Part shown: positions 21,700 through 37,840 of the stretch, in pieces
How positions within the stretch are numbered: position 1 is the stretch's first letter
Layout of the letters: every line of letters begins with the position of its first letter
From: Candidatus Poribacteria bacterium
GTDB taxonomy: Bacteria > Poribacteria > WGA-4E > PCPOR2b
NCBI GenBank assembly: GCA_022822785.1
Contig: JAJEAL010000136.1
Location: 1 to 64,000, forward strand
DNA length: 64,000 nucleotides
Reading direction: 5' to 3'
Translations under genes and position numbers: made by a program
Notes under the pieces: generated by a model
Seen by the model: only the letters and a program-made list of their open reading frames with translations
Told to the model about the DNA's origin: nothing
Databases searched by the model: none

Positions 21700-22194
21700 T
21701 CAGCTGATGCGAATCGTCTCTGCAAGCTCCCAATTAAAGTTAAAGTAGTAACTATACTTTCGGCTTTCAGGGACGCAGATGATACAGCGTTTACGATCGT
21801 TGACAAAGCGATCGGTAATTGTAATGAGATTGAGCTCGTAGGAGTATATCATTTCAATAGCATCAAGAACGAGCAGGTCGTGCGTTTGGAAATGCCTGTT
21901 TAACAGCTCTTCAACGGCAATTTGTATCAGGAGGTGTATCTTTGCTTTCGCGCCGGCGTAGGCGATTGATGCACGCTGCTTGTCTAATTCATCAAGCAGA
22001 TACAGATTTAAGTTGACGTAATAATCCGTGGAGTTATCAAATTTCTCCTTGAGCAGATGCTTGACCAAGTTCGTTTTGCCGGACTGAAAGTCTCCAACAA
22101 GACAAATTGTCCTGTCCCTATCCCCGGAATCGATGCAATCGGTTAAGGCGTGGTAGGCTTTCTGCTGATTTTCATTGAGTGGGTACGTTAGCAT
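21700..22194 (-). CDS. Small P-loop ATPase resembling BrxF
   Basis: 164 residues. Walker A 'GDFQSGKTNLVKHLL' near residues 34-48 and Walker B-like 'HDLLVLDAIEMIY' near 106-118. Between them comes 'YYVNLNLYLLDELDKQRASIA', and after Walker B a helix-rich end with 'DRKRCIICVPE'. The length and this order (strand, short NxNLxLLxxLxxxQR segment, then LLxDxIE) match BrxF of type 3 BREX as I know it; a generic small AAA/KAP-like ATPase is the alternative. No other BREX gene (brxC/pglY, pglX, pglZ, brxA, brxH) is near, so it would be an orphan. Last gene of the minus-strand PCP_red block. Start ATG at 22194 has a weak ribosome site. Confidence 0.6.
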   Translation of the reverse strand: MLTYPLNENQQKAYHALTDCIDSGDRDRTICLVGDFQSGKTNLVKHLLKEKFDNSTDYYVNLNLYLLDELDKQRASIAYAGAKAKIHLLIQIAVEELLNRHFQTHDLLVLDAIEMIYSYELNLITITDRFVNDRKRCIICVPESRKYSYYFNFNWELAETIRIS

Positions 22195-22281
22195 CCGATT
22201 GGGATTATCTCAAAGGGGAGATGTCAAAAAATCCTCCCAGTGGAAATGTGGCAGAGGAAACTCCTCCGTTGCTTCACACTG

Positions 22282-22695
22282 TCAAAAAGTTGCAGCTTTT
22301 TCAAAGAAGTCAATCTCGACTACCTCCACATTCGCACGTCGAGCATTGTCAGCCACCCTCTGGACAATCATTTCTCTCACAAACGGGATCGGGATGCGCT
22401 TGACACGATGAACGACCTCTTCCGTGCACCGGATTGAGGTATTACCCAAGAAGGGCCCTTCTTGCGATCTTGCTTCAGGGGGATGATCACATGTCTCAGG
22501 CACCAGCTGCTGCAAACGCATTGAAACATAGTCGGTTACCCAATCTTTGAGCGCTTCCCCTTTCTCCTCATCAATTGCCCTGGGTTGGGGCTTTTGATCT
22601 AATTTGTGGCTAATACCAATTAACAAATCTTCCAACCGATTCAAGCGATCCTCGACCGCGGATAATCGTTCTTCAACCTGAATTTCACGCTTCAT
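22282..22695 (-). CDS. Coiled-coil protein with degenerate PCP_red-like C-terminus
   Basis: 137 residues from the ATG at 22695, which has GAGGAGG 5 bases upstream; a TTG at 22731 in the same frame is less likely. Residues 1-50 form a charged coiled coil (VEERLSAVEDRLNRLEDLL). The C-terminal ~45 residues, 'EEVVHRVKRIPIPFVREMIV' and 'ADNARRANVEVVEIDFF', follow the spacing of PCP_red domains (basic-Pro-x-FVR, then a helix and an E-(I/V) strand turn) but lack the leading Trp. It lies 44 bases downstream of the radical SAM-PCP_red gene and is probably co-transcribed. Function unknown. Confidence 0.65.
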   Translation of the reverse strand: MKREIQVEERLSAVEDRLNRLEDLLIGISHKLDQKPQPRAIDEEKGEALKDWVTDYVSMRLQQLVPETCDHPPEARSQEGPFLGNTSIRCTEEVVHRVKRIPIPFVREMIVQRVADNARRANVEVVEIDFFEKAATF

Positions 22696-22738
22696 TTTTT
22701 CCTCCTCTAATGTCTTGGATATATCAGTCAACCATATT

Positions 22739-24040
22739 TCACCGCCGCGGCGTGAAGGATGGGATACCTGTTTTATCGAACCGTTGCTTCACAGCCTTCA
22801 TGATTTCCGGAGTAATTTCACTGTAACCGTGTTCGCGGGCGTATTTTTCGACACTTTTGGTGACCATCCCCCGTGCGAAGGAAGGTACCCGTTGTAATCT
22901 TTTTTGTGCAGCATCCGTCCATTGTAACTCGTAGTCGGCTTCAGCTGCAAAGGGCGTCGTCTTCTCAAAACGAATGTTTTGACTTCCCGCCTGTCCCGGT
23001 TGGTATTCGCAGGACGGATCTTCAGCCAAATAGTTGTCGGTAAGGGCATAAGCGCGGGCACGACAACCGCCGCAAACATCACGAAATTCGCAGGCGCCAC
23101 ATTTACCTTCCAGTAGTTTCCGATCTCGCAGCTCTTGAAAGACCTTGGATTTATTCCAGAGCGCTGCAAAACTTTCCGTCTTCAGATTGCCGACGCTCAC
23201 CGGCATATACGGGCACGGTGTTAAGTCGCCTTCAGGTGTGATGCGACAGTAATAGATCCCACAGGGACATGTACCGCTCGGATAGGCTTGTAGGAACGGA
23301 GAATCTGATTGTTGCTCATAGATGACGCGTTTGTAGTGTGGCGCGCATTTCGCCGCGACGAGCATCTTGCCGCGATATTTCGCTTGCAACTCAAAGAGCG
23401 TCGCAAGCATACTTTCATATTGGGCGGGAGTGATATCCATTACCGTTTTCCCTCTGCCAGTTCTCACAAGGAAATAGAGGTTGAACACTTTCGCGCCAAG
23501 TTCATAGGCGAAATCAACGATTTGCGGAACCTCATCGTAATTCCAGCGCGTCACAGAGGTCTGCACGAGGAAATCAAGGTTTGCTCGCTTGAGTGCCTCG
23601 ACTCCATTGATTGTACCTTCCCAAGCCCCATCCATGCCTCGGAATTTATCGTGATTGACCGGATCGACAGCATCTAAACTGATGCCCGCACCGGCAACAC
23701 CATGGTCGCTCATCCGCTGCACCGTTTCATCATTTAGTAAGACACCGTTTGTACCCATCACCACCAAGAATCCGGTTCGGGCGGCGTAATCCGAGATTTT
23801 CAGAATGTCAGGACGCAATAGTGGCTCGCCGCCTGTGAGGATGAGAAGGATGTTGGGATTAATTTCGGCAATCTCATCAATCACACGAAAACACTGAGAT
23901 TGACTCAGCTCTGAATCTCGATGATAACCGCTCGGAAATTCATTGGTATCTACGAATCCAGCGGGGAGATAGCAGTGCGTACATTTGAGATTACATAGCC
24001 GTGTGATATTCCATGAAACGGCTTGGACTTTCGTTTCCAT
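22739..24040 (-). CDS. Radical SAM/SPASM protein with C-terminal PCP_red domain
   Basis: 433 residues. The SAM-binding cluster is CNLKCTHC (residues 16-23, CxxxCxxC), with 'TGGEPLLRPDIL' and 'GISLDAVDP' as further radical SAM strands. A SPASM-type Cys set follows ('CPCGIYYCRI', 'TPCPYMP', 'GKCGACEFRDVCGGCRARA', 'DPSC'), expected to hold one or two extra 4Fe-4S clusters. The last ~60 residues are a PCP_red domain ('LQWTDAAQKRLQRVPSFARG', then 'AREHGYSEITPEI'). The layout resembles the AhbC/NirJ-like group that acts on heme precursors or on peptides, and PCP_red fusions to this group are known in several environmental phyla. The substrate is unknown. Neighbouring PCP_red genes and Mrp suggest a shared Fe-S dependent task. 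Confidence 0.88.
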   Translation of the reverse strand: METKVQAVSWNITRLCNLKCTHCYLPAGFVDTNEFPSGYHRDSELSQSQCFRVIDEIAEINPNILLILTGGEPLLRPDILKISDYAARTGFLVVMGTNGVLLNDETVQRMSDHGVAGAGISLDAVDPVNHDKFRGMDGAWEGTINGVEALKRANLDFLVQTSVTRWNYDEVPQIVDFAYELGAKVFNLYFLVRTGRGKTVMDITPAQYESMLATLFELQAKYRGKMLVAAKCAPHYKRVIYEQQSDSPFLQAYPSGTCPCGIYYCRITPEGDLTPCPYMPVSVGNLKTESFAALWNKSKVFQELRDRKLLEGKCGACEFRDVCGGCRARAYALTDNYLAEDPSCEYQPGQAGSQNIRFEKTTPFAAEADYELQWTDAAQKRLQRVPSFARGMVTKSVEKYAREHGYSEITPEIMKAVKQRFDKTGIPSFTPRR

Positions 24041-24076
24041 GGTTGTCCCCTAAACTTGATATGCTGTCATGTATTT

Positions 24077-24148
24077 CACCGCAGAGACACAGAGAACGCA
24101 GAGTTTTTTCTTAGGTTTTGAGCCCAAGGACCCGGCGTCTCTGCGGTG
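24077..24148. repeat. Inverted-repeat element in a gap of the minus-strand block
   Basis: caccgcagagac (24077-24088) is an exact reverse complement of gtctctgcggtg (24137-24148). Internal short direct repeats of gcagag/acagag follow the left arm. Sequences of this 'ccgcagagac-acagag-gcagag' type are scattered through many environmental bacterial genomes, so this is probably a short dispersed repeat (MITE-like). It is in the 137-base gap between the CopD-like gene and the radical SAM gene. Confidence 0.6.
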
Positions 24149-24177
24149 CACATATTTTGACGTAGATTCCCTTCCTA

Positions 24178-24684
24178 TCAATCCCCTATCATCTGGCGGA
24201 GATACAGAGAACATGCAAAAACAACAAGCCCAACACCTATCGTAAAAATTCCGAATAAGTCTACCTTCCTTTGTAACTTGGCGACCTCTGAAGCGTCGAA
24301 ATTCGGGCTTGCCACTGCCGACTCTAATCTTCGATTGAAAACTGCGATATGCAGGCTATGACACAGCGTCATCAATCCTACACCAGCAAGTTTCACGATG
24401 AAAACAACGACATAGCCCTGCGAGAACTCCATTTGCGTGTTTAAGGCAACGATGAACAGATTCATCGCACCGGTAATAAGGAGAATATGGATTGTAAAAC
24501 GGATAATATGTCGCAGGCGATCCCGAATAGCGGAGGTATATTGGATGCTTTTAACGCTTTGAAAATGCTTCCTCAACATAGGTGTTGCAACACTGACCGA
24601 AAAAAAGATCCCGCCAAACCATACGATTGCAGCAACAAGGTGTATCCAACGGATGAAAAGTTCGACAATTACACGCATAAACAA
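24178..24684 (-). CDS. CopD-like four-helix membrane protein
   Basis: 168 residues, about four membrane helices. 'RWIHLVAAIVWFGGIFFSV' at the N-terminus has the His and WxG pattern of the CopD/DUF4149 family, and further His residues lie on later helices ('RHIIRFTIHILLITGAMNLF', 'CHSLHIAVFNRR'). Members are variously linked to copper uptake or to heme binding in the membrane. ATG at 24684 or 24678. It sits between the radical SAM gene and a restriction-modification pair; the association with copper is family-level only. Confidence 0.75.
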   Translation of the reverse strand: MFMRVIVELFIRWIHLVAAIVWFGGIFFSVSVATPMLRKHFQSVKSIQYTSAIRDRLRHIIRFTIHILLITGAMNLFIVALNTQMEFSQGYVVVFIVKLAGVGLMTLCHSLHIAVFNRRLESAVASPNFDASEVAKLQRKVDLFGIFTIGVGLVVFACSLYLRQMIGD

Positions 24685-24716
24685 GTGAGAGCCACGCAGA
24701 TGGATAGATTGGGATA

Positions 24717-25238
24717 CTACAAGAGACTGTATTGTTCGTCCTCCTGGAGTATCCCATATTCTTTACACTCCTGGATTATCAATTCCGCATTTTTACAGTT
24801 CTCCAGAATAAAATAATTCTCCTTCAGATCGCTGATTTTGTTAATGGAAATACTTTTCTGACCCAGAGGTTTAATGAGAACAGTTGGAACAAAATAGAGT
24901 TCAAACGAATTATCGCTTATAGGATGAACACCAATTACAACATCTGCGGTCTCTGGCGATTGTATATACTCTTTAACTCCTGATTTATACTCCCTATCCA
25001 CACCACCCCTGGAACCTCCAGTAAAGCTAACACTGCTAGTCGCAGTCTTGACTTGAGCTCGAATAATGTCATCATTTCCATCTCCATCTTTTTGGACAAT
25101 GATTATATCATAGGTTGATAGAGGCAAATCAACTAACGAAACGTTCCGATATCTTTTCATCAAAAGTCCAACAACAATGTGCTCATGTGCAAAGCCATCT
25201 ATTGATGCCTGTCGGCCTCTCTCTTCAGCTATTTTCAT
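24717..25238 (-). CDS. PD-(D/E)XK-like nuclease next to a DNA methyltransferase
   Basis: 173 residues. An N-terminal helix with 'ASIDGFAHEHIVVGLLMKR' is followed by 'STYDIIIVQKDG' and 'IIRAQVKTAT': the order helix-E, strand-D, strand-(Q)xK is that of PD-(D/E)XK enzymes where Gln replaces the second acidic residue, as in some Mrr-like and HJ-resolvase-like nucleases. The adjacent upstream methyltransferase (9 bases away) argues for the restriction half of a type II-like system. It could also be an accessory of unknown role. Base composition is visibly more AT-rich than in the neighbouring PCP_red genes. Confidence 0.65.
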   Translation of the reverse strand: MKIAEERGRQASIDGFAHEHIVVGLLMKRYRNVSLVDLPLSTYDIIIVQKDGDGNDDIIRAQVKTATSSVSFTGGSRGGVDREYKSGVKEYIQSPETADVVIGVHPISDNSFELYFVPTVLIKPLGQKSISINKISDLKENYFILENCKNAELIIQECKEYGILQEDEQYSLL

Positions 25239-25247
25239 GTTTCTATC

Positions 25248-26678
25248 TCATTTTCTGAGCACCAGAATCCAGTCTGTGTTAATCCGTTCCCCTCTAGGAA
25301 CTTTGATAAAATGTTTAATAATCTCTGATCCGAAATAGTTTTCAATCTCAAATCCGATATTTTCTGCCAACACCATCAAGTACTTCCAACTTTCAAATAG
25401 CTGACCACGAATACGGTTATTGCCCACAACAATGATGTATCGTCCTCCATCACGTAACACCGAATAAACCTCGGACAGATTTTTCTGCATATCGTCTAAG
25501 TATTTGAAAGCGATATACGCCCGCCTTGGGTCCTTTTCAAAAATCTTCTCAATAACACTATCCGCCGCTCCTACACCGATCTGATGTCGGGTTCGATAAT
25601 CCTGGGATGAAACACTTTCTGTTCCAACGTGCTTTTTCTTTAAGGGTGTTAAAGTACCATCGGCAAATCCCAACCAATAGAGCTCCAATTGATGGGTTCT
25701 CGGATAATCAACTGCATTCACATACGGCGGTGAAGTCAGAACCAAGTCAAAAGTCCCCGTATCGCACCTGATATTCCGGGCGTCCATGTTTTCTGGAAAG
25801 TTTACGGTTACACCTTGGGGCACATTTTGAGAAAATTCTATCATCTTGGGCACTTTGACTAGCACCGTTTCCACAAATTTCCTCAAGGCATCGGAGGGAT
25901 TGACCTGTTTTTTTAGTACCTTGCGAATTACAGTCCTCGTGCAATTATCATCAGCATTGGACACAGCACGAATAATCGAGGAGAAACAGACTCTGAAGAA
26001 GTCTTTAACGTGCTTACTCTTATCAAGGGATTCAATAGCCTTTTTTAAGTAAGCCAATTCTAAAATTATTTCTCTGTTGAACCAATTATCCCTGTAGGGA
26101 AAGGACGGTATATCCAATTCTGATACTAGAGCGGGGTGATAGTTTTCTACAGCATTAAACAGAGATTCTTGAGCTTCGAGGAGTTCCTTTTTAGCTAAGG
26201 GCGTCACCTTGACTGTTGAGATAAACCGAGAAAATGGATCAACATCAATACCAACAGAGTTTCTTCTCAGTAAAAGTGCCTCAACATTTGTCGTCCCACT
26301 TCCCGAAAACGGGTCAAGTATCATATCGTTTTCCTGGGAATACCGTTTTATTAGCCAACGTGGCAATTCGGGAAAAAATTTGGCAGGATATTTATGCAAT
26401 CCGTGGGTGAGATGACTCTGGTCATAGCTAATAAACAGAAATCTATTGCCATCATTAACAGGCAAACCAACAGGAATGTCCCCATCGACCTGCACAACCT
26501 CCTCCCCAAACGGATTCACAATTTTCCGGACATTATCCCTCGGTTGATGTGCATCATGTTCGGGGCGTTTGCGCCTGCCATTCTTTTGAGCAACCTTCGC
26601 CAATATAGCTGGCACTGAAATGGGGTACCATGGCAGGTCTATTGAGGATTGTGTGAGACGAATATCTTCCGTTTCCAC
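25248..26678 (-). CDS. DNA methyltransferase (amino-group type)
   Basis: 476 residues. 'LDPFSGSGTTNVEALL' (about 121-136) is the SAM-binding motif I and 'VLTSPPYVNAVDYPRT' (about 313-328) the catalytic motif IV; TSPPY is found in N4-cytosine and some N6-adenine enzymes. Motif I precedes motif IV by about 190 residues, in which the target recognition region would lie. 'GLHKYPAKFFPELPRWLIKRY' before motif I is typical of a known methyltransferase subfamily often paired with nucleases. GTG start at 26678 with AGGAG 9 bases upstream. It is placed between PCP_red genes, 12 bases after one of them, and looks inserted. Confidence 0.9.
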   Translation of the reverse strand: METEDIRLTQSSIDLPWYPISVPAILAKVAQKNGRRKRPEHDAHQPRDNVRKIVNPFGEEVVQVDGDIPVGLPVNDGNRFLFISYDQSHLTHGLHKYPAKFFPELPRWLIKRYSQENDMILDPFSGSGTTNVEALLLRRNSVGIDVDPFSRFISTVKVTPLAKKELLEAQESLFNAVENYHPALVSELDIPSFPYRDNWFNREIILELAYLKKAIESLDKSKHVKDFFRVCFSSIIRAVSNADDNCTRTVIRKVLKKQVNPSDALRKFVETVLVKVPKMIEFSQNVPQGVTVNFPENMDARNIRCDTGTFDLVLTSPPYVNAVDYPRTHQLELYWLGFADGTLTPLKKKHVGTESVSSQDYRTRHQIGVGAADSVIEKIFEKDPRRAYIAFKYLDDMQKNLSEVYSVLRDGGRYIIVVGNNRIRGQLFESWKYLMVLAENIGFEIENYFGSEIIKHFIKVPRGERINTDWILVLRK

Positions 26679-26690
26679 TGTGATAAACTC

Positions 26691-27191
26691 CTACATCCCA
26701 AAGTTACCGCGGGCGGTATCCATCACCTCAGTAGTAATTTCGGTGTGACCATTCTCGCGGGCAAACTCTTCGATGCTGCTTTTTGCCATTGAACGGACGA
26801 AACTCGGCACACGTTCCAAACGCTCTAACGCTTCCGGCGTCCATACTGGTCCGGTCGCCGCCGGTTCTTGAAACGCTTCCGCCACAGCCGATGAGAACGG
26901 GCATTTGCCACCGCCTTCGATGGATCCCGTCGGAGCTTCGGACGTTAGATTATCGGGATTCTTCTCACTCAAGAAGGAACGCACCATCTGCATCGGTTGT
27001 GCTGCTTCGCTTTTACCACCAAGCTGAACATTGAGAGATTTCAGCATCTGGGTCTCCCACGGGTTCATGTGCATCGCGAACTCGGCAAAGCAATCCGGGC
27101 ACTCAAAAATCGCCGTCAACGATCCTTGATCCGGCGTCGCTGTTTCCTTAAATTCCATCGCTGTATTACATTCAAGGCATAAGAATTTCAT
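26691..27191 (-). CDS. Zinc-ribbon protein with PCP_red domain
   Basis: 166 residues. N-terminus has a zinc ribbon ('LCLECN' at 3-8 and 'ECPDCFAEF' at about 30-38). A linker with an isolated 'GKCPFSSA' follows. The last ~55 residues are a canonical PCP_red domain: 'VWTPEALERLERVPSFVRSM' then 'SIEEFARENGHTEITTEVMD'. In protochlorophyllide reductase this domain forms the C-terminal arm of the B subunit; here it stands without any catalytic subunit. The gene lies 29 bases downstream of mrp on the same strand. Function unknown, Fe-S or thiol chemistry is a guess from the context. Confidence 0.85.
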   Translation of the reverse strand: MKFLCLECNTAMEFKETATPDQGSLTAIFECPDCFAEFAMHMNPWETQMLKSLNVQLGGKSEAAQPMQMVRSFLSEKNPDNLTSEAPTGSIEGGGKCPFSSAVAEAFQEPAATGPVWTPEALERLERVPSFVRSMAKSSIEEFARENGHTEITTEVMDTARGNFGM

Positions 27192-27220
27192 TGATTGACT
27201 CCGTTTATATGTTGCCTTTT

Positions 27221-28105
27221 TTATTTAAAGAACATCCGAATTTCATCTGTGATGCCAAAAAATGTTTGTCCCGCGGGCGTATCTCGGTATTGATCAACAA
27301 ACGCAATACCTTCATCTGCAGCGATAGAGATTCGCGGATCAAACGGTATCTGGCCGAGCAGAGAAACATCAAATTGACGCGCCATTTCCTCCGTATGCCC
27401 GGACGGGAACAGGTTTTCAGTTTTGCCGCAATCGGCGCAGACATACGCTGCCATATTTTCGACGACACCAATCACCGGGGCGTTAAGCAGTTTCTTTGCC
27501 ATCGTCAACGATTTTTTAACGACAAGCTGGGACACTCCAGAAGGGATTGTGACAACAAGTGCACCGCCAAGATTCGGCAGGAGATCGACGAGATTGGGCA
27601 ACCGGTCTGCGCCGGGAGGAAGATCGATCAGCAGATAATCAAGCGTTCCCCATTCGGTATCGGAGAGAAATTCACGGAGGGCACTCATTTCCATGGTACC
27701 TCGCCAAGTGAAAGCATCCCTCTGCGTTTGGGATTCCCAGAGGACGGGGGTTTCATCGTCCTTTAGGAACAGATCCATCGACATCACCTTGACCCCAAGC
27801 GGACTGATGGCTGGTTTAACACCATCAATTCCATAGTCAATCTGCTCTCCTCTCACACCCATCATTTTGGCAATTGAGGGACCGTTGATGTCAGCGTCAA
27901 CCACGCCAACACTCTGCCCTCGTAGTCGAAGTGCTGAAGCGAGGTTTGCCGTAACGGAACTCTTACCCACGCCACCTTTCCCGCTCATGATCGCAACGGT
28001 GTGATTGACTGATGCAAGCCGTCTTTGTAGACGATTGACCTGCTCCGTGACTTGTCCAACGATGTTTGAACCGCCATCAGCGGGCAGGTCTTTGTACGTT
28101 TTCAT
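27221..28105 (-). CDS. Mrp/NBP35-family Fe-S cluster carrier ATPase
   Basis: 294 residues. Deviant Walker A 'SGKGGVGKSSVTANLASAL' near residues 40-58, the switch strand 'VGVVDADINGPSIAKMMG', and the C-terminal 'CADCGKTE' whose CxxC pair bridges a 4Fe-4S cluster in the dimer. 'LLIDLPPGADRL' is the family's switch II region. These ATPases hold and pass on Fe-S clusters. The location next to a radical SAM enzyme and PCP_red zinc-ribbon proteins suggests a dedicated carrier. No DUF59 domain is fused at the N-terminus, unlike many Mrp proteins. Confidence 0.92.
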   Translation of the reverse strand: MKTYKDLPADGGSNIVGQVTEQVNRLQRRLASVNHTVAIMSGKGGVGKSSVTANLASALRLRGQSVGVVDADINGPSIAKMMGVRGEQIDYGIDGVKPAISPLGVKVMSMDLFLKDDETPVLWESQTQRDAFTWRGTMEMSALREFLSDTEWGTLDYLLIDLPPGADRLPNLVDLLPNLGGALVVTIPSGVSQLVVKKSLTMAKKLLNAPVIGVVENMAAYVCADCGKTENLFPSGHTEEMARQFDVSLLGQIPFDPRISIAADEGIAFVDQYRDTPAGQTFFGITDEIRMFFK

Positions 28106-28114
28106 AGGTATTGT

Positions 28115-28966
28115 TTAGTGGTAAATAAATAACGGAATATCCGCCTGCGCGACCAAAGATTTAGTTACACTCCCAAAGACAAATTCGGACACACTACGTC
28201 GGCCATACGCCCCCATTACGAGCAGATCAATTTCATGCTCTCGGATGTAGGACAGAATGACTTCATCCGGTCTTCCCTTCAATTGAACCTTTTCTGGCTG
28301 TATCCCATATCTCCTGAAGTAGTCACCCAACCTGCTAAGGAGCTGTATTCCGCGGGTTGCATTATTATTGACATTTAGGAGAGTGATGTCTGACTGATTC
28401 CAAATATGGAGCATGAGAAACATCTGAATTGCTTTGGTGACTTGGACGCTATTATCATAAGCAACGAGCACTTTTTTAATCTGCCTTACACAATCGGGAA
28501 CCGCTAGGACCGCCGTCAGTCCATTATGGAGGATTCGATCTAGGGTGTTGCCTGGTTCGTGTTTGAGATTATACCGAAAAAAGGTCTTCTGTCCGACTAT
28601 AATAAAGTCGTGGAACTTTGATTCTTCGATAATTTCTCGGAACGGGCTTCCCATCTCTGCATGGATTGAATGGCGAATCTGCTTCTCTTGGCATTCTTTT
28701 CCAAAGTCTTCAAGGATTCCGGTTACCATCTCCCGTGCTTCTTGAAGGTGTTGCCGATCAGCAAACTGATCATAGTGCATGGTTCCAATCGGCGCGGGAC
28801 CGCTTGAACGTTGGATACCCGGCAAATCAATTACTCCAATACCGGTTAATGAGGCATCATGTTCAAGGGCAATTTGGGTAGCGTATTCGATTGCCGCCTG
28901 AGAATAGCTTGAACCGTCGAGACATACAAGGATTTCTGCAAAATGCAAAGGATTTCTGGGTCCCAT
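28115..28966 (-). CDS. Tandem universal stress protein
   Basis: About 283 residues from the ATG at 28966 (a GTG at 28999 in the same frame is possible; neither has a clear ribosome site). Two UspA folds: the first from 'ILVCLDGSSYSQAAIEYATQ', with its terminal 'HDFIIVGQKTFFRYN', and the second from 'VLVAYDNSVQVTKAIQM' ending 'DLLVMGAYGRRSVSEFVFGSVT'. The second carries the G-x2-G-x9-G(S/T) ATP-binding loop in degenerate form. Probably a nucleotide-binding stress regulator. It is 9 bases ahead of mrp. Confidence 0.87.
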   Translation of the reverse strand: MGPRNPLHFAEILVCLDGSSYSQAAIEYATQIALEHDASLTGIGVIDLPGIQRSSGPAPIGTMHYDQFADRQHLQEAREMVTGILEDFGKECQEKQIRHSIHAEMGSPFREIIEESKFHDFIIVGQKTFFRYNLKHEPGNTLDRILHNGLTAVLAVPDCVRQIKKVLVAYDNSVQVTKAIQMFLMLHIWNQSDITLLNVNNNATRGIQLLSRLGDYFRRYGIQPEKVQLKGRPDEVILSYIREHEIDLLVMGAYGRRSVSEFVFGSVTKSLVAQADIPLFIYH

Positions 28967-29011
28967 TGGCAACGCCCTATTTAAGACAACGTTCAGCACG
29001 TAATTGTACGC

Positions 29012-30949
29012 TTACATCGTTTCCTCTTCACCGCGCTCGGTTTCAGCTGTGTCTCTTTCCTGCTGGTAATATGTCCCAAGCACCTCATTGTCCAGACTCC
29101 GTCCTTCCTCAATAACCTGCGCTGCAAAATCTAGGTTGATTGTCGTGATGTCGGCTTCCTGTGCTCGCTGCTCGACACGGGATTGCGTGATGTTCCGCAT
29201 AAATCCAGCGGGTACGAGGTTCAGTCGTTCACGGGCATCTGGCGTCCATTCAAGCGGACTCTCAAATACTTCTTCTTGGGAGGTATCATCGGACTCGCGG
29301 GACTGGGCGACGGCTTTCAGTTCGGGAGCGTCTTCACGGACAGCGGAAGCTTGGTCCATGCTCTCATTGATAATCTGCATTGCGAAATCATTGGTGATTG
29401 TCCCAATCTTCTGGACACGCGCCGATTTTTCGATCCGCGCCTTGACGTTGCGCCGCATGTACCCTCTTGGGACGTTCCGCAACGCCTTTTTCGCCTGATC
29501 TGACCACTGGAGTCGTACGCCATCGAAGGTCTGTTCCTCACTGACACCGCCCTCTTGATCTGCGACCCGCTGAAGTGAATCTTTATCAACCATCTGGAAT
29601 TTGTCGCCGTCTACGCCGCAAACGGGGCATTTTACGGGCTGCTGGTCTTTGGCAGCATAGCCGCAATCCCCGCAGATGTAGGTCTTAATTGTATTGGAAT
29701 CCAACACTGTTTGCGTTGCAATTTCTTTGGCGACTTTGGTCATCCGCTCCGCAGACCGTCCTGGCATAAAGGTCTCCATTGCCTGCTCAATGACGCTCTC
29801 AGTAATGACAGAGTGCCCGCGCTCAATGGCAAAACGGTGGACAGCAGTGCGTGCAATACCCTGTACCTGTGGGGGTGCCTTCGCCATCCGATCTAACGCT
29901 TCCTGTGTCCAGACCACGGTCTCCTCAGCTCTTACATCAACTTTCGGAACATACCGTTGGCTTGACAGAAACACATTACACGGGGCAAGGCGCAATAGGT
30001 TTTCGGTGTTGCTGCCGATATCCATATCAGGTTCGCTGTGAACACCGATCCGGCCCAACATGAGCATCCACGGTTCGGTTTTTCGAGCGTATTGCAGGAT
30101 CTTCTCAAACGCTTTGCCGTCTAATAGAGTAATTTTGAGGTTGTAGTTATGATCCTCTTTGGCGATGGTCCGAGCAATCTCCAGATGGGACTGATAGATT
30201 TTGGCGAGACCAGTATCAATGACCTCTTCGTGTAACTGTTCTTGCTCTTTAAATCGGAAGGTTTTAGACGCACGCTCAGTTAAGACACTGACGACCGAAT
30301 TAAATACCACATAGTGAAGATAGGGATCATAAACGCCAACCGCTTCAACCTGCCTATCAAATGCTTTGCCGATTCGGATTGCTGTTTTCAAGCCACCGAA
30401 GGATTCGGGACTGCCATCAATTCCAACGAGAATATGTCCCTTCTGCTCGTGCATATCTTCTATATTTCGGACCACAAGGGTATCGGTTTCAATACGCCGC
30501 ACGACCCGTTCAACGACACCGCCAAGGAGACTGTCCTTAACTGCACCCATACCGAGTGCCCCCATGATCACAAGGTCGTAATCGCTCGCCTGAATATCCT
30601 CTGCGAGCTTGATGAAGTGCTTTCCCTCAGGCATCTTGGCTTCAAAGGGGATGTCATTTTCAGCACATTTATTTTTCATGACCTCTAGGTACGAATCAGA
30701 GATTAACTGAAGTCCCATCGTAATCAATGTGTCATGAATGCGGCGCTGCTTCTCAAGTTCAGCTTCATCCTGGTATTCTTCCGGTAGTGTGTACTCCATC
30801 TGTTTGAAGCGAACATCGTGCATTTTTGCCGCATAAACGTGAGAACCGACCAGCTGTGACTGAAATTTTTTGGCGAACTCCACAGCGAAATTGACGCTCG
30901 CATCGGAATGGTCCGAGTTGTCAACCGGCACATAGATTTTCTTAAACAT
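29012..30949 (-). CDS. USP-USP-PCP_red-rubredoxin-like-PCP_red-PCP_red fusion
   Basis: 645 residues from the ATG at 30949, with GGAGGG 6 bases upstream. Two universal stress domains (about 1-163, 'IYVPVDNSDHSDASVNFAVE', and 171-330, 'ILVGIDGSPESFGGLKTAI'). A PCP_red domain follows (about 346-397: 'VVWTQEALDRMAKAPPQVQG'), then a rubredoxin/zinc-ribbon module (about 424-455: 'CGDCGYAA' and 'VKCPVCG'), then two more PCP_red domains (about 480-535 and 567-620: 'LQWSDQAKKALRNVPRGYM', 'LEWTPDARERLNLVPAGFM'). Three copies of the domain in one chain and the rubredoxin-like insert are unusual. First gene of the block. It may sense redox or stress state, but no activity can be assigned. Confidence 0.88.
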   Translation of the reverse strand: MFKKIYVPVDNSDHSDASVNFAVEFAKKFQSQLVGSHVYAAKMHDVRFKQMEYTLPEEYQDEAELEKQRRIHDTLITMGLQLISDSYLEVMKNKCAENDIPFEAKMPEGKHFIKLAEDIQASDYDLVIMGALGMGAVKDSLLGGVVERVVRRIETDTLVVRNIEDMHEQKGHILVGIDGSPESFGGLKTAIRIGKAFDRQVEAVGVYDPYLHYVVFNSVVSVLTERASKTFRFKEQEQLHEEVIDTGLAKIYQSHLEIARTIAKEDHNYNLKITLLDGKAFEKILQYARKTEPWMLMLGRIGVHSEPDMDIGSNTENLLRLAPCNVFLSSQRYVPKVDVRAEETVVWTQEALDRMAKAPPQVQGIARTAVHRFAIERGHSVITESVIEQAMETFMPGRSAERMTKVAKEIATQTVLDSNTIKTYICGDCGYAAKDQQPVKCPVCGVDGDKFQMVDKDSLQRVADQEGGVSEEQTFDGVRLQWSDQAKKALRNVPRGYMRRNVKARIEKSARVQKIGTITNDFAMQIINESMDQASAVREDAPELKAVAQSRESDDTSQEEVFESPLEWTPDARERLNLVPAGFMRNITQSRVEQRAQEADITTINLDFAAQVIEEGRSLDNEVLGTYYQQERDTAETERGEEETM

Positions 30950-31038
30950 CCTTCTCCCTCCATTTTCCATTAACCAATTATGTTTTTTAGTCTGCGTTCC
31001 AAATGTGATGTTTCTTGTCCACGTTACTTTTCAGTTTT

Positions 31039-32427
31039 TCACTTCGGTCCAATCATCTGGCTGGGAACGACAACCCGATCGAATTCTTCCTCGCTCAAGA
31101 GATTAAGTTCGACCACAGTCTGCCGCAGCGTCTTGCCTTCCTGATGGGCAGTTTTAGCGACCAACGCTGCATTGTCGTAACCGATGTAAGGGTTAAGCGC
31201 GGTGACAAGCATCAGTGAATCGTTCAGGTACTCTTGGATTTTCTCCCGATTTGGTTCGATACCGACAACACAGTTTTCGTTGAACGAATCACAGGCATCC
31301 GCAAGTAGGCGGATGGACTGGAGCGCGTTAAAAGCGATGACAGGCATAAACACATTCAATTCAAAGTTGCCCGATGCACCTGCAATCGCAACCGTTGTGT
31401 CGCTGCCGATAACTTGGGCGCAAACCATCGTCATGGCTTCGCATTGCGTCGGGTTCACTTTCCCCGGCATAATTGAACTTCCCGGCTCGTTTTCTGGTAA
31501 CAGCAGCTCGCCAATACCGCATCGGGGCCCGCTGCCAAGCCAGCGCAGGTCGTTTGCTATTTTGTTCAGCGCACACGCCAGTGTTTTAACGGCACCGCTC
31601 GCTTCGACGATAGCGTCTCTGGCACCGAGCGCTTCAAACTTGTTGGGCGCAGTCACAAAGGACAATCCGGTGCGCTTCGAGATTGCAGCCGCGGCTTTCG
31701 CCGCATATTCGGGATGGGTGTTCAAGCCTGTGCCAACCGCTGTTCCACCAATCGGTAGTTCATACAGATGTGGTAGCGAATTATCAATTGCTCGGAGTGC
31801 GTTATTCAACTGTGTGACATATCCAGAAAACGCCTGTCCTAATGTCAACGGAGTGGCATCTTGGAGATGGGTGCGCCCGGTTTTGACAATATCCTGAAAA
31901 GCTTCAGCTTTAGCTGATAGTGCGTCGCGTAGAGCAGTCACAGCGGGGATTAGGTGGTTGTGAATACGGTCAACGACAGCAACGTGGATAGCCGTTGGGA
32001 AGGCATCGTTGGTAGACTGAGATTTGTTGACGTGGTCGTTGGGGTGAATGGGTTCTTTGCTGCCGAGCACACCGCCAAGCATTTCAATGGCACGATTCGA
32101 GATCACTTCATTGGCGTTCATATTGGTCTGGGTCCCGCTACCCGTCTGCCAGACCACCAGCGGGAAGTGCTCATCAAGATCGCCATCAATGACCTCCTGT
32201 GCGGCTTTGATGATAATTTCAGCTAGATCTACCTCGAGTGTTCCCAACTCGGCGTTTACCTCTGCGACAGATTGTTTGACAATACCGAGCGCCCAGATCA
32301 TCTCGCGCGGGAACCGTTCCCCGCCAATCTTAAAATTTTGTAAGGATCGCTGGGTCTGCGCGCCCCAATACCGATTCGTCGGGACCTCAATCTTCCCCAT
32401 GCTATCCGTTTCAGTTCTCGTTTGCAT
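31039..32427 (-). CDS. fumC: Class II fumarate hydratase
   Basis: 462 residues, the standard FumC length. Converts fumarate to malate without an iron-sulfur cluster. Signature '[15 protein letters not shown]' is complete, and the first substrate-binding region reads '[18 protein letters not shown]'. '[12 protein letters not shown]' and '[15 protein letters not shown]' (catalytic His) are also intact. ATG at 32427 with GAGAGG upstream. It lies 19 bases after sdhB in the same direction, so the succinate to malate segment of the TCA cycle is encoded together. Confidence 0.97.
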
Positions 32428-32446
32428 TTACCTCTCCACACCTACA

Positions 32447-33193
32447 TTACTTTTGTGGTCGAAAAATCCGAAAGAGCTTTTTAATCGGATCATAGAATTG
32501 GTCGACCACCCGCTCTTTGAGTGGGATGATGGCATTATCGGTAATCGTGATGTGTTCCGGACAAACCTTTGTGCAGCATTTAGTAATGTTGCAATAGCCG
32601 ATGCCATCCGTGTCCTTCAATTCCTCCAGCCGGTTCTCTGTGTCAAGTGGGTGCATCTCGAGTGCTGCGGCGTAAACAAAAAATCGAGGTCCAATGAATT
32701 TATCGTGTAGATCATGCTCACGTAACACATGGCACACATCCTGACATAGGTAACATTCGATACATTTGCGAAATTCTTGAACGCGGTCAATGTCCGCCTG
32801 TGCCATTCGCCAAGTACCATCTTCGGCGTCGGGTGGTCTCGGATTGAACGGCTTAATTTTTTTCTTGACCTCAAAGTTCCATGAGACATCAGTGACTAAG
32901 TCCTTGATAAGTGGAAATGCGTGCATAGGCTCCACGGTCACTGGCGCGTCAAGCGGAATATCGTTAAGCCGGGTCATACACATCAATTTAGGATTTCCGT
33001 TGACCTCTGCTGAGCAGGATCCACATTTGCCGGCTTTGCAGTTCCAGCGCACGGCGAGATCGTTAGCCTGTTCCGCTTGAATCTTATGAACTGCGTCTAG
33101 GACCACCATTCCTTCAGAGACTTCGGTGTCATAATCGACGAATTTTCCTTCGTTAGCGTCGCCTCGCCATATTCTGAAAGTTGCTGTTGCCAT
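32447..33193 (-). CDS. sdhB: Succinate dehydrogenase iron-sulfur subunit
   Basis: 248 residues. Three clusters are seen: the ferredoxin-type 2Fe-2S ('CKAGKCGSC' with a later Cys in 'LMCMTR'), and the helical pair 'CIECYLCQDVCHVLR' and 'CNITKCCTKVCPEHI'. Carries electrons from FAD of SdhA to the membrane quinone site. The start codon overlaps the stop of sdhA by one base. Sequence style (…WRMAQADIDRVQEFRKCIEC) fits the non-proteobacterial SdhB group with a single large membrane anchor. Confidence 0.96.
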   Translation of the reverse strand: MATATFRIWRGDANEGKFVDYDTEVSEGMVVLDAVHKIQAEQANDLAVRWNCKAGKCGSCSAEVNGNPKLMCMTRLNDIPLDAPVTVEPMHAFPLIKDLVTDVSWNFEVKKKIKPFNPRPPDAEDGTWRMAQADIDRVQEFRKCIECYLCQDVCHVLREHDLHDKFIGPRFFVYAAALEMHPLDTENRLEELKDTDGIGYCNITKCCTKVCPEHITITDNAIIPLKERVVDQFYDPIKKLFRIFRPQK

Positions 33194-35007
33194 TAGCCCA
33201 TCTCCTCTATCACCGCTTGGAGGTCTTCGCGCAATTCGGGTATCAGTTCTCGACTGACCTCCATTTCACCGTCCGCATTCTTGCGAACCACCGTATTATA
33301 CTTGCCTGCGCCCGGTTCCTCCTTCTCAGGATAATCGTCACGAGAATGTGCACCGATGCTTGCTCTGCGCTCTAACGCTGCAAGCGCAATGGCTTCAGAT
33401 ATTGTGAGCATGTGTTCCAGATCCAGTGCCGTATGCCATCCCGGATTATACTCCCGATTTCCGCCCACGCCTGCTTGGTTGGCGCGTTCCCCGAGTTTGT
33501 GGACTTCTGCCCGAGCCTCGTTTAACCCTTCATCGCTGCGCGCGATACCAACGAGGTCTTGCATCATATCCTGCAGATCATACTGGATTTGGAATGGATT
33601 CTCGCCATCTGCATTGTCAAAAGGTTTTAACGCTTCACTTGCAACTGTCTCAATCTCTGCTTCGTTCACTTTGCCTGCGCTGTTTTCTTTGGCAAATTGT
33701 GCAGCATACTCACCTGCACGTTTACCGAAAACTAGCAGGTCAGACAGCGAGTTACCTCCCAATCGATTCGCGCCGTGCAAGCCTGCACCGCATTCACCAC
33801 CCGCAAAAAGCCCCGGCACTGAGGTCATCTGTGAGTCCGCATCGACACGAATTCCGCCCATGATGTAGTGGGTCGTTGGGCCCACCTCCATCGGTTCTTT
33901 GGTGATGTCAATATCCGCCAACTGCATAAATTGGTGATACATACTGGGCAGCTTCCGTCTGATATGTTCTTCGGCGTTGGATATTTTCTCGGAGATCCAT
34001 GAGATGTCGAGGAAGACACCACCGTGTGGACTTCCGCGCCCCTCCTGTACTTCACGCACAATGCACCGAGCGACATGGTCCCGGGTAAGGAGTTCTGGAG
34101 GTCTACGAGCATCTCGATCGCCTTGTGTATATCGCCATCCTTCTTCGGGGTCGTCAGAGGTCTGATTCTGATACAGATCGGGTATATGGTCAAACATAAA
34201 TCGCTGACCCTCACTATTCGTCAGAACTCCTCCCTCACCACGGACGCCTTCTGTTACTAATATGCCTCGCACACTTGGGGGCCAAACCATACCGGTGGGA
34301 TGAAATTGTACGAATTCCATATCAATCAGTTCGGCACCCGCATGGTAGGCGAGTGAATGTCCATCACCTGTGTATTCCCAGCTATTGCTCGTAATTTTAA
34401 AAGCCTTGCCAACGCCGCCGGTAGCGAGCACCACCGCTTTGGCAGAGAAGATCTTGAAGCGTCCTTTTTCGCGTTCGTAACTAAAGGCTCCAACGACCCG
34501 GCCGTCGTCTTTCAGTAGTGATATGACCGTGCACTCCATGTGCACATCCACGCCTTGATGGATACCGTGGTCTTGCAGCACACGAATCATCTCCAGGCCG
34601 GTACGGTCTCCGACATGGGCAAGCCGAGGATATTGATGACCGCCGAAATTTCGTTGCAAGATGCGCCCATCTTGTGTCCGATCAAACAGTGCGCCCCACG
34701 CCTCTAACTCACGAACTCGATCCGGTGCTTCTTTGGCGTGGAGTTCCGCCATACGCCAGTTGTTAAGATATTGACCGCCGCGCATGGTGTCGGCGAAGTG
34801 AACTCGCCATCCATCGCGCTCGTCAACATTCGCTAGCGCTGCAGCAACACCGCCTTCAGCCATAACCGTATGCGCTTTGCCAAGGAGGGATTTACATACT
34901 AACCCGACAGAAACCCCGGCGGCAGAAGCTTCGATAGCAGCTCTCAGACCTGCGCCTCCGGCACCGATGACTAGCACATCATATTCATGCGTTTCGTATT
35001 GTACCAC
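33193..35007 (-). CDS. sdhA: Succinate dehydrogenase flavoprotein subunit
   Basis: 604 residues. FAD-binding 'VLVIGAGGAGLRAAIEAS', covalent flavin His in 'GKAHTVMAEGG', 'MEFVQFHPTGM' and 'TEGVRGEGGVLTN' at the substrate site, and 'HYIMGGIRV' are intact. Start: the frame is open to 35124, but the GTG at 35007 has GGAGG 8 bases upstream and overlaps the last base of the sdhC TAG stop (TAGTG), which implies translational coupling, and it gives the usual N-terminus. Oxidises succinate to fumarate and reduces the membrane quinone pool through SdhB and SdhC. Confidence 0.96.
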   Translation of the reverse strand: MVQYETHEYDVLVIGAGGAGLRAAIEASAAGVSVGLVCKSLLGKAHTVMAEGGVAAALANVDERDGWRVHFADTMRGGQYLNNWRMAELHAKEAPDRVRELEAWGALFDRTQDGRILQRNFGGHQYPRLAHVGDRTGLEMIRVLQDHGIHQGVDVHMECTVISLLKDDGRVVGAFSYEREKGRFKIFSAKAVVLATGGVGKAFKITSNSWEYTGDGHSLAYHAGAELIDMEFVQFHPTGMVWPPSVRGILVTEGVRGEGGVLTNSEGQRFMFDHIPDLYQNQTSDDPEEGWRYTQGDRDARRPPELLTRDHVARCIVREVQEGRGSPHGGVFLDISWISEKISNAEEHIRRKLPSMYHQFMQLADIDITKEPMEVGPTTHYIMGGIRVDADSQMTSVPGLFAGGECGAGLHGANRLGGNSLSDLLVFGKRAGEYAAQFAKENSAGKVNEAEIETVASEALKPFDNADGENPFQIQYDLQDMMQDLVGIARSDEGLNEARAEVHKLGERANQAGVGGNREYNPGWHTALDLEHMLTISEAIALAALERRASIGAHSRDDYPEKEEPGAGKYNTVVRKNADGEMEVSRELIPELREDLQAVIEEMG

Positions 35008-35819
35008 TACAGGATCCTCCAGTCCGACAAAATCCCCATCGAACACAACCGAACATAAACGTCCGACAATCCCACCCAGCAGAGACTCATCCACGCCCAG
35101 AGCATGTGTCGCCGATTCAAACAACTGACGCAGTTGTAGGCAGTTCGACGAATGGGTGCCCCGGAAAGTCTATCGCGGATGCCCCCTACAAGATGACGTA
35201 ACGAGTGGCATCCGAGCGTGTATCCACCTAGAAAGATAACATTGCCTGTTAATATCAGCGTACCGATACCGATACCGAACGATTTGCCGCCATCCCCATT
35301 TTCAAACCATAGTGCCGTCCAAGCATCGTAGGCAAGAATTACTAGGAAAACGAGCGCTAGGTACAGAAAGTATCGATGGACGTTTTGCATAATCAGCGGA
35401 AACGAACCTTCGCCCCGGTAGCCCTTGCGCGGTTCGCTGACAGTACATGAAGGTGGATCTGCCCAAAAGGCTTTGTAATAAGCACCACGATAATAGTAAC
35501 AGGTGAAACGAAAACCGAGCGGTGCCCAAAGAATGAGGATGGCCGGTGAAAACCAGAGAGGCAACCAATCAGGTTTCCCAGCAAACCAACTGTGTCCTGA
35601 GTTATGATCGTGGGTATCAAAAAGCAGCGGAGAATAGAAAGGAGACAGATATGACTCGTGATGATAATGATCGCCCTGAAAGACCGCCCACGTCGCATAG
35701 AGACCAAAAATAGACAACCCCAGAAAAACCGCTAGCGGTTGTACCCACCACACATCGCGTCGTCTGGTTTGACCGAACCGGCGGTCGGTTAAAGTTAATT
35801 CTGGATGATTCATAGACAA
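35007..35819 (-). CDS. sdhC: Succinate dehydrogenase membrane anchor, single-chain type
   Basis: 270 residues with about five membrane helices, e.g. 'VQPLAVFLGLSIFGLYATWAV', 'FSPAILILWAPLGFRFTCYYY', 'YFLYLALVFLVILAYDAW' and 'LILTGNVIFLGGYTLGCHSL'. Several His on these helices (VHRYFLYL, GCHSLRHLVG) could ligate heme b. Single long anchors of this kind replace the separate SdhC and SdhD in a number of phyla. It sits immediately upstream of sdhA with a one-base overlap, the main reason for the call. Start 35819 or 35813, undecided. Confidence 0.85.
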   Translation of the reverse strand: MSMNHPELTLTDRRFGQTRRRDVWWVQPLAVFLGLSIFGLYATWAVFQGDHYHHESYLSPFYSPLLFDTHDHNSGHSWFAGKPDWLPLWFSPAILILWAPLGFRFTCYYYRGAYYKAFWADPPSCTVSEPRKGYRGEGSFPLIMQNVHRYFLYLALVFLVILAYDAWTALWFENGDGGKSFGIGIGTLILTGNVIFLGGYTLGCHSLRHLVGGIRDRLSGAPIRRTAYNCVSCLNRRHMLWAWMSLCWVGLSDVYVRLCSMGILSDWRIL

Positions 35820-35825: not shown

Positions 35826-36500
35826 TCATTTTTTAAGCAGCGTTTTTATATCTTTACGCAACTGCTGGAGTGACCCCGGACTTCGACTGTCATAGTAGCC
35901 GTGGACGCGCTGGCTTCGATCGACAAGCGCAAACCGTGTACTGTGCAGAATTTCGCTTCCACGATGACCGGCTGCTAGGTTAAAACCTTCATGAGCTAGT
36001 TGATAGATTGCATCTTTCCGTCCAGTCAAGAAAGACCAACGGTTGCTATCGGCCCCATACTGATCTGCATAATGCAAGAGGACCTCCGGACTATCTCGTT
36101 CGGGATCCACAGAGAAAGAGACGAAATGGAGATCTCCTGTCGCGAATTCATCCTGAAGGTCCGCCATTTGAACGGTCATTGCCGGACAAATTGTCGGACA
36201 ACTGGTAAAGATGAAATCGGCAACCCAGACCTTACCATGCAAATCAGACAAAGCAAACGGAGCACCCCGTTGATTCGTCAAGGAAAAGTCCGGCAGTTGT
36301 CCACGACCATCAAGCCCTAACGATGAATCTGACGGCTCAGCGGTTGTCCCAGACTTTTGATAAACAAACGATCGAAGATTAACACCTACGATTCCAACAA
36401 TTACGAGGGCTAGCACTCCCCATAGAAGTCCGCGCAGCGTACGGTCACTGGGTCTAGCCCTCTGCTCTGAAGATTTGAGTTCGACTTCCATAGACATCAA
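35826..36500 (-). CDS. SCO1/SenC-type copper chaperone
   Basis: 224 residues. An N-terminal membrane anchor (about 25-47, 'GLLWGVLALVIVGIVGVNL') and a thioredoxin-fold domain with the copper-binding 'FTSCPTICPAMT' (CxxxC) and a downstream His ('HSTRFALVD'), the full ligand set. Delivers copper to the CuA site of cytochrome oxidase. It lies between sdhC and the oxidase subunit genes, consistent with that role. Confidence 0.93.
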   Translation of the reverse strand: MMSMEVELKSSEQRARPSDRTLRGLLWGVLALVIVGIVGVNLRSFVYQKSGTTAEPSDSSLGLDGRGQLPDFSLTNQRGAPFALSDLHGKVWVADFIFTSCPTICPAMTVQMADLQDEFATGDLHFVSFSVDPERDSPEVLLHYADQYGADSNRWSFLTGRKDAIYQLAHEGFNLAAGHRGSEILHSTRFALVDRSQRVHGYYDSRSPGSLQQLRKDIKTLLKK

Positions 36501-36545
36501 ACATAAACCCTAAGACGTGCAAGGTAAGATTTACTCACGCTTTAC

Positions 36546-36887
36546 TTAGTGAGAGGTATCAACGACTTGAGATTGCGCTGTGGTTCCTTCGTGGCGAGCA
36601 CTTGCCATTAGATCTGGCAGCAGCATAAGCACGAGAAAAACGCAGATGATAAACGGTGTCAGCGCAATAACTATCAAGGTTCTCTGCTCAAATTTCAGGT
36701 GCATGAAATATAGAGCAACATAAAGTGCCTTAGAACATGCCATACCAATCAGCAGAATTGCGGTCACAACTTGCCCTAGCATCTGTTTCAAAAAAGGCAG
36801 GGCAACGAGGACTTCAAGGATGGTGAGTACCAAAAGAATCCAAAATATTCTCATGTATTTCGGGTGTTCTTTATGAGCGTGTTCCAT
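36546..36887 (-). CDS. Cytochrome c oxidase subunit IV
   Basis: 113 residues, three helices in the bacterial CtaF/CoxD-like pattern: 'RIFWILLVLTILEVLVALP', 'AILLIGMACSKALYVALYFMHLKFE' and 'IVIALTPFIICVFLVLMLLP'. The KALYV-YFMHL stretch is typical. Starts with a His-rich peptide (MEHAHKEHPKY). Part of the cox gene run, 20 bases from the subunit III gene. Confidence 0.9.
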   Translation of the reverse strand: MEHAHKEHPKYMRIFWILLVLTILEVLVALPFLKQMLGQVVTAILLIGMACSKALYVALYFMHLKFEQRTLIVIALTPFIICVFLVLMLLPDLMASARHEGTTAQSQVVDTSH

Positions 36888-36907
36888 ATTGATTCTCCAT
36901 TCGGTGA

Positions 36908-37552: not shown

Positions 37553-37555
37553 TTT

Positions 37556-37810
37556 TCACACTCCTTTTATATTTGAGGGTGATTTACGATTATCGGCCCG
37601 ATGTGCGCGGTAGTATACGTAGAACACACCACCGCCAATTAGACCGGAGACAATATAGGGCATTGCCATAAGGAATAGAATACTCCATTTGAAACCCTGA
37701 ACAATTGGGTCATCAATGGTTTTACATGAGGGACAGGCTTCCACAGCTGCGGGTATCAGCAGTGCGAGAACCGTGACCCCTACTATTAACAAAAAATATC
37801 GACGCATCAT
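37556..37810 (-). CDS. Small exported membrane protein of the cox cluster
   Basis: 84 residues from the ATG at 37810, chosen because AAGGAG lies 7 bases before it; the frame is open to 37840. It has a signal sequence (YFLLIVGVTVLALLIPAAVEA), the motif 'CPSCK' just after it and one further helix (FLMAMPYIVSGLIGGGVFYVYY). The CxxC could bind copper or heme, or form a disulfide. Encoded between the two subunit III genes, so an oxidase assembly or accessory subunit is possible. No family name known to me. Confidence 0.75.
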   Translation of the reverse strand: MMRRYFLLIVGVTVLALLIPAAVEACPSCKTIDDPIVQGFKWSILFLMAMPYIVSGLIGGGVFYVYYRAHRADNRKSPSNIKGV

Positions 37811-37840
37811 AAGAGATCTCCTTGGTGTTTTCAATGGCAT

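Follow-up and report, generated by a model that had tools for sequence, protein, structure and literature searches.

PCP_red genes accompany a bd-like oxidase in Poribacteria and Nitrospirota and form part of a candidate oxidase-biogenesis module

PCP_red, a three-helix domain of about 45 residues, takes its name from a chlorophyll-making enzyme, and a stand-alone PCP_red protein is already present in databases (e.g., Asr4154, PDB 2L09). Here, we analyze a gene block built around this domain in a non-photosynthetic sponge-symbiont bacterium, using a 64,000-nucleotide stretch of a Candidatus Poribacteria genome (contig JAJEAL010000136.1, assembly GCA_022822785.1; hereafter the window). The comparison extends to Nitrospirota, whose genus Nitrospira comprises major nitrite oxidizers. 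In the literature, a set consisting of an alternative NxrC, two cytochromes c, and a bd-like oxidase is tied to nitrite oxidation; as described in excerpts of PMC6606698, alt_NxrC_2 has two CxxCH motifs and a C-terminal hydrophobic helix, its cluster is also found in Nitrospina and anammox bacteria, and canonical Nitrospira are without a heme-copper oxidase. Heme propionates are the groups on which the radical SAM enzymes AhbD and NirJ act (PMC7242693). In the window, PCP_red occurs together with an AhbD/NirJ-group radical SAM protein, an iron–sulfur (Fe–S) carrier, and universal stress proteins (USPs), and its genes are both co-inherited with and located near a bd-like oxidase of the Nitrospira type.

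All 180 genomes found to encode a bd-like protein (68 Poribacteria and 112 Nitrospirota) carry PCP_red. The domain is present in 71 of the 85 Poribacteria genomes, three of which lack the bd-like protein, and the other 14 have neither; among 246 sampled Nitrospirota genomes, 136 have PCP_red (112 with the bd-like protein, 24 without) and 110 have neither, while a bd-like protein without PCP_red was seen in 0 genomes of either phylum. Where a Nitrospirota genome has at least two PCP_red copies (11–12 being most frequent), 105 encode the bd-like protein versus 1 that does not, although shared ancestry inflates all of these counts and their Fisher values are not proper probabilities. More independent points are the recurrence in two phyla and the contrast between two members of one genus: outside the main order of Poribacteria, only G046 has PCP_red or the bd-like protein, and it has both, whereas G047 has neither (G and L numbers denote genomes and loci). 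When the bd-like and zinc-ribbon–PCP_red genes share a contig, they are at most 30 kb apart in 46 of 48 genomes. In locus L056, bd-like oxidase genes neighbor those for a USP and radical SAM–PCP_red. An earlier note on this DNA, made from the sequence alone, overlooked this association, which we regard as the strongest clue to the block, along with the heme-related genes and the AhbD/NirJ group membership.

The block forms one end of a respiratory region of about 34 kb that lies entirely on the minus strand, with the bd-like/alternative-NxrC set leading, the heme-copper oxidase set following, and the block running from 29012 to 22282 (genes and proteins are named by their lower coordinate). 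Genes upstream of the block, also on the minus strand, include SCO1, two COX3, CtaB, CtaA, COX1, and COX2. The conserved neighborhood extends up to ~55.5 kb and thereby takes in two oxidase gene sets, an extent that the earlier note did not mention, and the order of the oxidase region is kept in the eight other Poribacteria genomes tested. The bd-like protein is 44% identical over 571 residues to that of Nitrospira locus L194, and the set at 48538–54464 fits the alt_NxrC_2/bd-like_3 cluster of Nitrospira as described in excerpts of PMC6606698. The features, all on the minus strand, are listed from the bd-like set onward.

52647–54464, minus: bd-like oxidase (Cyt_bd_oxida_I), ~50% identical to Nitrospira bd-like oxidases (PF01654, 69 bits vs 26.2; 44–52% to L194/L056)
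51117–52619, minus: membrane c-type cytochrome of the bd-like set (PF00034, 44.7 bits; matches L056, L204)
50322–51101, minus: membrane c-type cytochrome of the bd-like set (PF13442, 36.3 bits; matches L204, L056)
48538–50271, minus: NxrC-like subunit, cytochrome c plus EB_dh (PF09459, 70.6 bits; PF00034, 71.7 bits; two CxxCH; C-terminal hydrophobic helix)
35826–43609, minus: heme-copper oxidase set of COX2, COX1, CtaA (heme A synthase), UbiA/CtaB, COX3, COX3, and SCO1 (Pfam)
31039–35124, minus: FumC, SdhB, and SdhA, between SCO1 and the USP; variable, not core
29012–30970, minus: tandem USP with helical insertions, then PCP_red, a rubredoxin-like zinc ribbon, and two more PCP_red (PF00582, 119.7 bits; PF08369, three hits; PF21349, 27.3 bits; alignment A4; AlphaFold2 model)
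28115–28999, minus: second tandem USP, without PCP_red (PF00582, 105.6 bits)
27221–28105, minus: Mrp/ApbC-type Fe–S carrier P-loop ATPase (PF10609, NUBPL, 255.7 bits vs 27.1; CxxC, CADC at 223–226)
26691–27191, minus: zinc ribbon with four conserved Cys plus C-terminal PCP_red (PF08369, 68.8 bits; alignment)
25248–26678, minus: DNA N4/N6 methylase, an insertion, not core (PF01555, 78.8 bits)
24717–25238, minus: partner of the DNA methylase, an insertion, not core; no family name
24178–24684, minus: CopD/UPF0093-like small membrane protein (PF05425, 28.7 bits vs 32.1; PF03653, 26.5 bits vs 34.2; under both)
22739–24040, minus: radical SAM/SPASM protein of the AhbD/NirJ group with C-terminal PCP_red (PF04055, 82.7 bits; PF13186, SPASM, 40.6 bits; PF08369, 60.7 bits)
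22282–22731, minus: strongly conserved coiled-coil protein with a divergent C-terminal PCP_red (18.2 bits; HHalign 95.7%; alignment A1)
21700–22194, minus: P-loop ATPase, not core (NF033453, BrxF, 24.5 bits vs 50)

The PCP_red copies were scored with PF08369, for which the curated cut-off is 32.5 bits. Five copies in three proteins exceed it: those of 22739 and 26691 in the search of the window's proteins and, when the whole genome was searched, the three of 29012 (44.2, 36.2, and 34.3 bits). The sixth copy, in 22282, falls below the cut-off (18.2 bits, range 18–20), but HHalign aligns the family of this 149-residue protein (alignment A1, with 11 strongly conserved relatives) to PCP_red (alignment A2) with 95.7% probability and an E-value of 9e-9 across residues 103–146, the C-terminal ~44 residues. 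The earlier note's count of six copies in four proteins therefore appears fair, provided that the copy in 22282 is labelled divergent. A profile search of the 5,604,615-base genome found no further PCP_red over or near the cut-off. The full-length BchB/ChlB profile matched the window's PCP_red proteins only over its final ~60 positions (48.8 bits vs a cut-off of 509), and the nitrogenase-like BchB core was not found in the block's PCP_red proteins. Mrp was rejected as BchL or NifH, given scores of 19.2 versus 345 and 19.4 versus 394 bits, respectively. The non-photosynthetic setting that the earlier note described, without bchN/B/L-like genes, is borne out, as are its Mrp, radical SAM/SPASM, and two USP assignments and five of its six PCP_red calls at the protein ends. 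Neither outcome that the note had named as refuting its reading, sub-threshold PF08369 scores for most copies or a lack of conserved co-occurrence in related genomes, was seen. Its CopD-like and BrxF-like labels proved weaker than stated, and the BrxF-like ATPase lies outside the conserved core.

That core comprises two modules: module A (the USP with three PCP_red, Mrp, and zinc-ribbon–PCP_red) and module B (CopD-like, radical SAM–PCP_red, and the degenerate PCP_red protein). The two are joined in the window, and module B occupies a separate site in three genomes (G001, G026, and G039). Nearly every genome in three Poribacteria families has exactly six PCP_red copies. Mrp adjoins zinc-ribbon–PCP_red in all Poribacteria loci tested, while the CopD-like gene adjoins radical SAM–PCP_red in 45 of 47 and 14 of 16 loci in two overlapping locus sets, and does so in Nitrospira as well. 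In G046, a USP lacking any PCP_red adjoins radical SAM–PCP_red, so the pairing of these two proteins is independent of PCP_red on the USP.

Several genes in or beside the block vary between relatives and were rejected as core members, namely SdhAB–FumC, the methylase pair, the 21700 ATPase, and a TPR gene. The methylase and its partner, unmentioned in the earlier note, sit between the CopD-like and zinc-ribbon–PCP_red genes in a restriction-modification-like arrangement and, apart from the window's own genome (G000), were found only in G001 and G003 among the relatives compared. The ATPase is restricted to the window's genus among the loci compared, and a BREX or defense assignment for the block was rejected on its low BrxF score and the lack of any other visible BREX part. 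At the SdhAB site next to the USP, close relatives (L039, L043, and L044; G001, G004, and G005) have only distant homologues of SdhA (34–36%) and SdhB (29–30%), and FumC–SdhB–SdhA is absent from the loci of families f2 and f3.

Much of this arrangement recurs in Nitrospirota. In 26 of 29 genomes, Mrp has a zinc-ribbon PCP_red protein as its neighbor, mostly one with a pair of PCP_red domains; one of the three exceptions is cut off at a contig edge. In L261, the two genes overlap. The USP with three PCP_red, radical SAM–PCP_red, and the CopD-like gene lie in series in L191, L195, and L200. In deeper branches, USP–PCP_red and radical SAM–PCP_red are followed by a protoporphyrinogen oxidase, which in L204 scores 304 bits for TIGR00562 against a cut-off of 98 and has homologues in L205, L206, and L210. 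The bd-like oxidase is close at hand in some of these loci: it precedes, with cytochromes c, the USP–PCP_red and radical SAM–PCP_red genes in L204, and in Nitrospira L198 a zinc-ribbon–2xPCP_red gene lies between a DUF420 gene and the bd-like oxidase gene. Elsewhere (L209, L262, and L263), a single zinc-ribbon–PCP_red gene lies between a second radical SAM-like gene (530 residues) and leuD. Radical SAM–PCP_red proteins of two Nitrospirales genomes, G085 (L107/L208) and G086 (L113), are 73% and 67% identical to that of the window, and the G085 protein groups with Poribacteria (support 100/100) and not with Nitrospira. Gene transfer is the likely explanation for these copies, although short contigs leave room for mis-binning.

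The radical SAM–PCP_red protein 22739 offers a tie to heme. Its best NCBIfam scores are for AhbD (322.3 bits) and NirJ2 (307.1 bits), with mycofactocin (132 bits) and PqqE (129 bits) far lower. The equivalog cut-offs for AhbD (TIGR04545) and NirJ2 (TIGR04055) are 500 bits each, and reference proteins score 534.5 (a true AhbD in G090) and 591.7 bits (Clostridium NirJ2). A maximum-likelihood tree unites every sampled radical SAM protein that has a PCP_red fusion in a single clade (100/99), whose members always carry the fusion; this clade is sister to NirJ2 (90/85) and lies within the group holding AhbD. Both cut-offs being missed, and given the tree, 22739 was rejected as AhbD or NirJ2; on sequence grounds, it belongs to the AhbD/NirJ heme group as a separate clade. 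The cluster ligands are intact, with C16, C20, and C23 (CxxxCxxC) plus C232, C258, C276, C314, C317, C323, C326, and C344 invariant in 18 sequences. The predicted structure (predicted local distance difference test, pLDDT, 80) is nearest to PqqE in the PDB, and PCP_red forms a separate three-helix unit after a low-confidence linker. The window's genome also carries HemY (325.6 bits), HemH (227.5 bits), and a HemQ-like protein (58.3 bits), and 22739 is therefore probably not the sole heme b synthase; a role restricted to heme b synthesis is disfavored by the same genes. The HemQ-like match (L215, 10167–11520, G000:C32; 58 bits) covers half of the model and adjoins a DUF420 gene, a further heme/oxidase link.

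Among the partner proteins, the 652-residue USP 29012 was modeled by AlphaFold2 as tandem USP domains plus PCP_red three-helix units with moderate confidence (pLDDT 71; predicted template-modeling score, pTM, 0.50), and its nearest PDB entries are tandem USPs. Each USP half (residues 38–96 and 209–256 of alignment A4) contains an inserted long helical hairpin with a His pair, H45/H73 and H213/H241, at matching spacing and invariant across both phyla. These conserved histidines suggest a metal- or heme-binding USP, the details of the His cluster being beyond the model. The zinc-ribbon protein 26691 matches stand-alone Nostoc Asr4154 and BchB C-termini.

Based on the co-inheritance and proximity of the bd-like oxidase, the heme-related genes (the protoporphyrinogen oxidase neighbor in L204 and CtaA/CtaB in the window's cluster), and the AhbD/NirJ group membership, we propose, with a probability of roughly 0.45, that the block acts as a module in the biogenesis of a respiratory oxidase complex, combining heme tailoring, Fe–S supply, and PCP_red. 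The complex served would be the bd-like oxidase/NxrC-like cytochrome and, in Poribacteria, the heme-copper oxidase as well. Radical SAM–PCP_red would tailor heme by acting on side chains of the tetrapyrrole used by the complex, receiving Fe–S clusters from Mrp and its zinc-ribbon–PCP_red partner, while the CopD-like protein and SCO1 would serve the membrane and copper side. USP–PCP_red could be an ATP-dependent scaffold or an O2/energy sensor bearing three PCP_red arms, and PCP_red itself may either hold the tetrapyrrole or join the block's proteins. A bolder version, which we consider rather improbable, makes PCP_red a general tetrapyrrole-handling domain that outlived or predated chlorophyll use; the PCP_red-fused radical SAM clade would then produce a modified heme, as yet undescribed, that serves the bd-like oxidases of both phyla and is carried by the USP– and zinc-ribbon–PCP_red proteins. 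Several points weigh against an oxidase-biogenesis role. The tetrapyrrole substrate and tetrapyrrole binding by PCP_red are putative, 22739 misses the AhbD and NirJ2 cut-offs, and the cell should be able to make ordinary heme b without it. Furthermore, 23 of the 24 Nitrospirota genomes with PCP_red and no bd-like protein have a single copy, a single zinc-ribbon–PCP_red can have leuD and a different radical SAM-like gene as its neighbors (L262, L263), and genomes of one clade are not independent evidence.

The main rival, unlikely but deserving attention, holds that PCP_red docks SIMIBI-class Fe–S ATPases, as BchB–BchL in dark-operative protochlorophyllide reductase (DPOR) and the USP, zinc-ribbon, and radical SAM proteins with Mrp, and that the block delivers or repairs Fe–S clusters for O2-exposed enzymes with no tetrapyrroles involved. 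The earlier note had likewise suggested a docking arm for Fe–S proteins within a common pathway; the pathway gains support from the co-occurrence of the gene set across Poribacteria and Nitrospirota, while the docking arm is favored by the constancy of the Mrp/zinc-ribbon–PCP_red pair, the most constant of all, and countered by the bd-like and heme clues. A docking role would also suit the retained CxxC of Mrp and a radical SAM protein that needs several clusters (eight invariant Cys beyond CxxxCxxC), but it leaves unexplained the heme-group radical SAM protein, its protoporphyrinogen oxidase neighbor, and the near-exclusive co-inheritance with one oxidase, and the radical SAM–PCP_red/CopD-like module is often distant from Mrp, as in the three genomes with a separate module B. 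Less probable still is an oxygen- or redox-stress regulatory module, in which the USPs would sense ATP/O2 status, with control of respiratory enzymes, once these are made, falling to the rubredoxin-like and PCP_red parts. Two tandem USPs, the rubrerythrin-type zinc ribbon, and the invariant insertion histidines are consistent with it, and excerpts of PMC8115632 report four UspA proteins of Nitrospira marina that increase when O2 is low and lie on either side of co-induced operons, which would bear on the block if these are the PCP_red USPs. A radical SAM/SPASM enzyme with full cluster motifs and an Mrp, however, favor catalysis or cofactor maturation over regulation alone. We regard as very unlikely a replacement AhbD that makes heme b from Fe-coproporphyrin, which would turn the block into a heme b synthesis operon: no AhbD-like radical SAM protein other than 22739 was found in the window's genome, and G135 pairs radical SAM–PCP_red with an AhbC/NirJ1-type protein and no canonical AhbD, but the TIGR04545 score (322 vs 500), the position beside NirJ2 and outside AhbD, and the presence of HemY, HemH, and the HemQ-like protein argue otherwise, and G135 is a small metagenome-assembled genome that may be incomplete.

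Our search of open-licence papers, a weak negative, found none linking PCP_red with Nitrospira, Poribacteria, USPs, or bd-like oxidases, and within the same scope no known assembly factor for Nitrospira bd-like oxidases was found. For Nitrospira, genomics is still the only basis on which terminal oxidases and hemes are assigned. Co-inheritance now names candidates, namely radical SAM–PCP_red, Mrp with zinc-ribbon–PCP_red, USP–PCP_red, and the CopD-like protein, and its near-exclusive character makes the heme question directly testable. The module would be of the cofactor/oxidase biogenesis type, its radical SAM enzymes forming a heme-group subfamily not yet described, and PCP_red gains a large non-photosynthetic role. 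Because the bd-like/NxrC-like set occurs in Poribacteria, our data suggest that it need not be specific to nitrite oxidation.

Four known systems frame these assignments. As in DPOR subunit B (BchB/ChlB; PDB 2KRU, 2L09, 2XDQ, 3AEK, and 2YNM), PCP_red here is a ~45-residue three-helix PF08369 domain, whereas in this block it is fused to USP, zinc-ribbon, radical SAM, and coiled-coil proteins without the BchB core. With AhbD and NirJ/NirJ2, 22739 shares the radical SAM/SPASM group, its best curated matches, and a similar motif layout, but it has a C-terminal PCP_red and an oxidase/USP/Mrp setting rather than the siroheme–heme pathway. USP 29012 has the tandem fold of Rv2623, TTHA0350, and UspE, the best PDB matches of its model, and differs from them in that each half bears a long inserted helical segment with invariant His, and in its rubredoxin-like and three PCP_red domains. 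Finally, the window matches the Nitrospira bd-like/alternative NxrC clusters in its bd-like protein, two c-type cytochromes, and NxrC-like EB_dh subunit, but here the set lies beside a heme-copper oxidase, absent from canonical Nitrospira (PMC6606698), and the excerpts of PMC6606698 and PMC8115632 make no mention of PCP_red, radical SAM, or Mrp partners.

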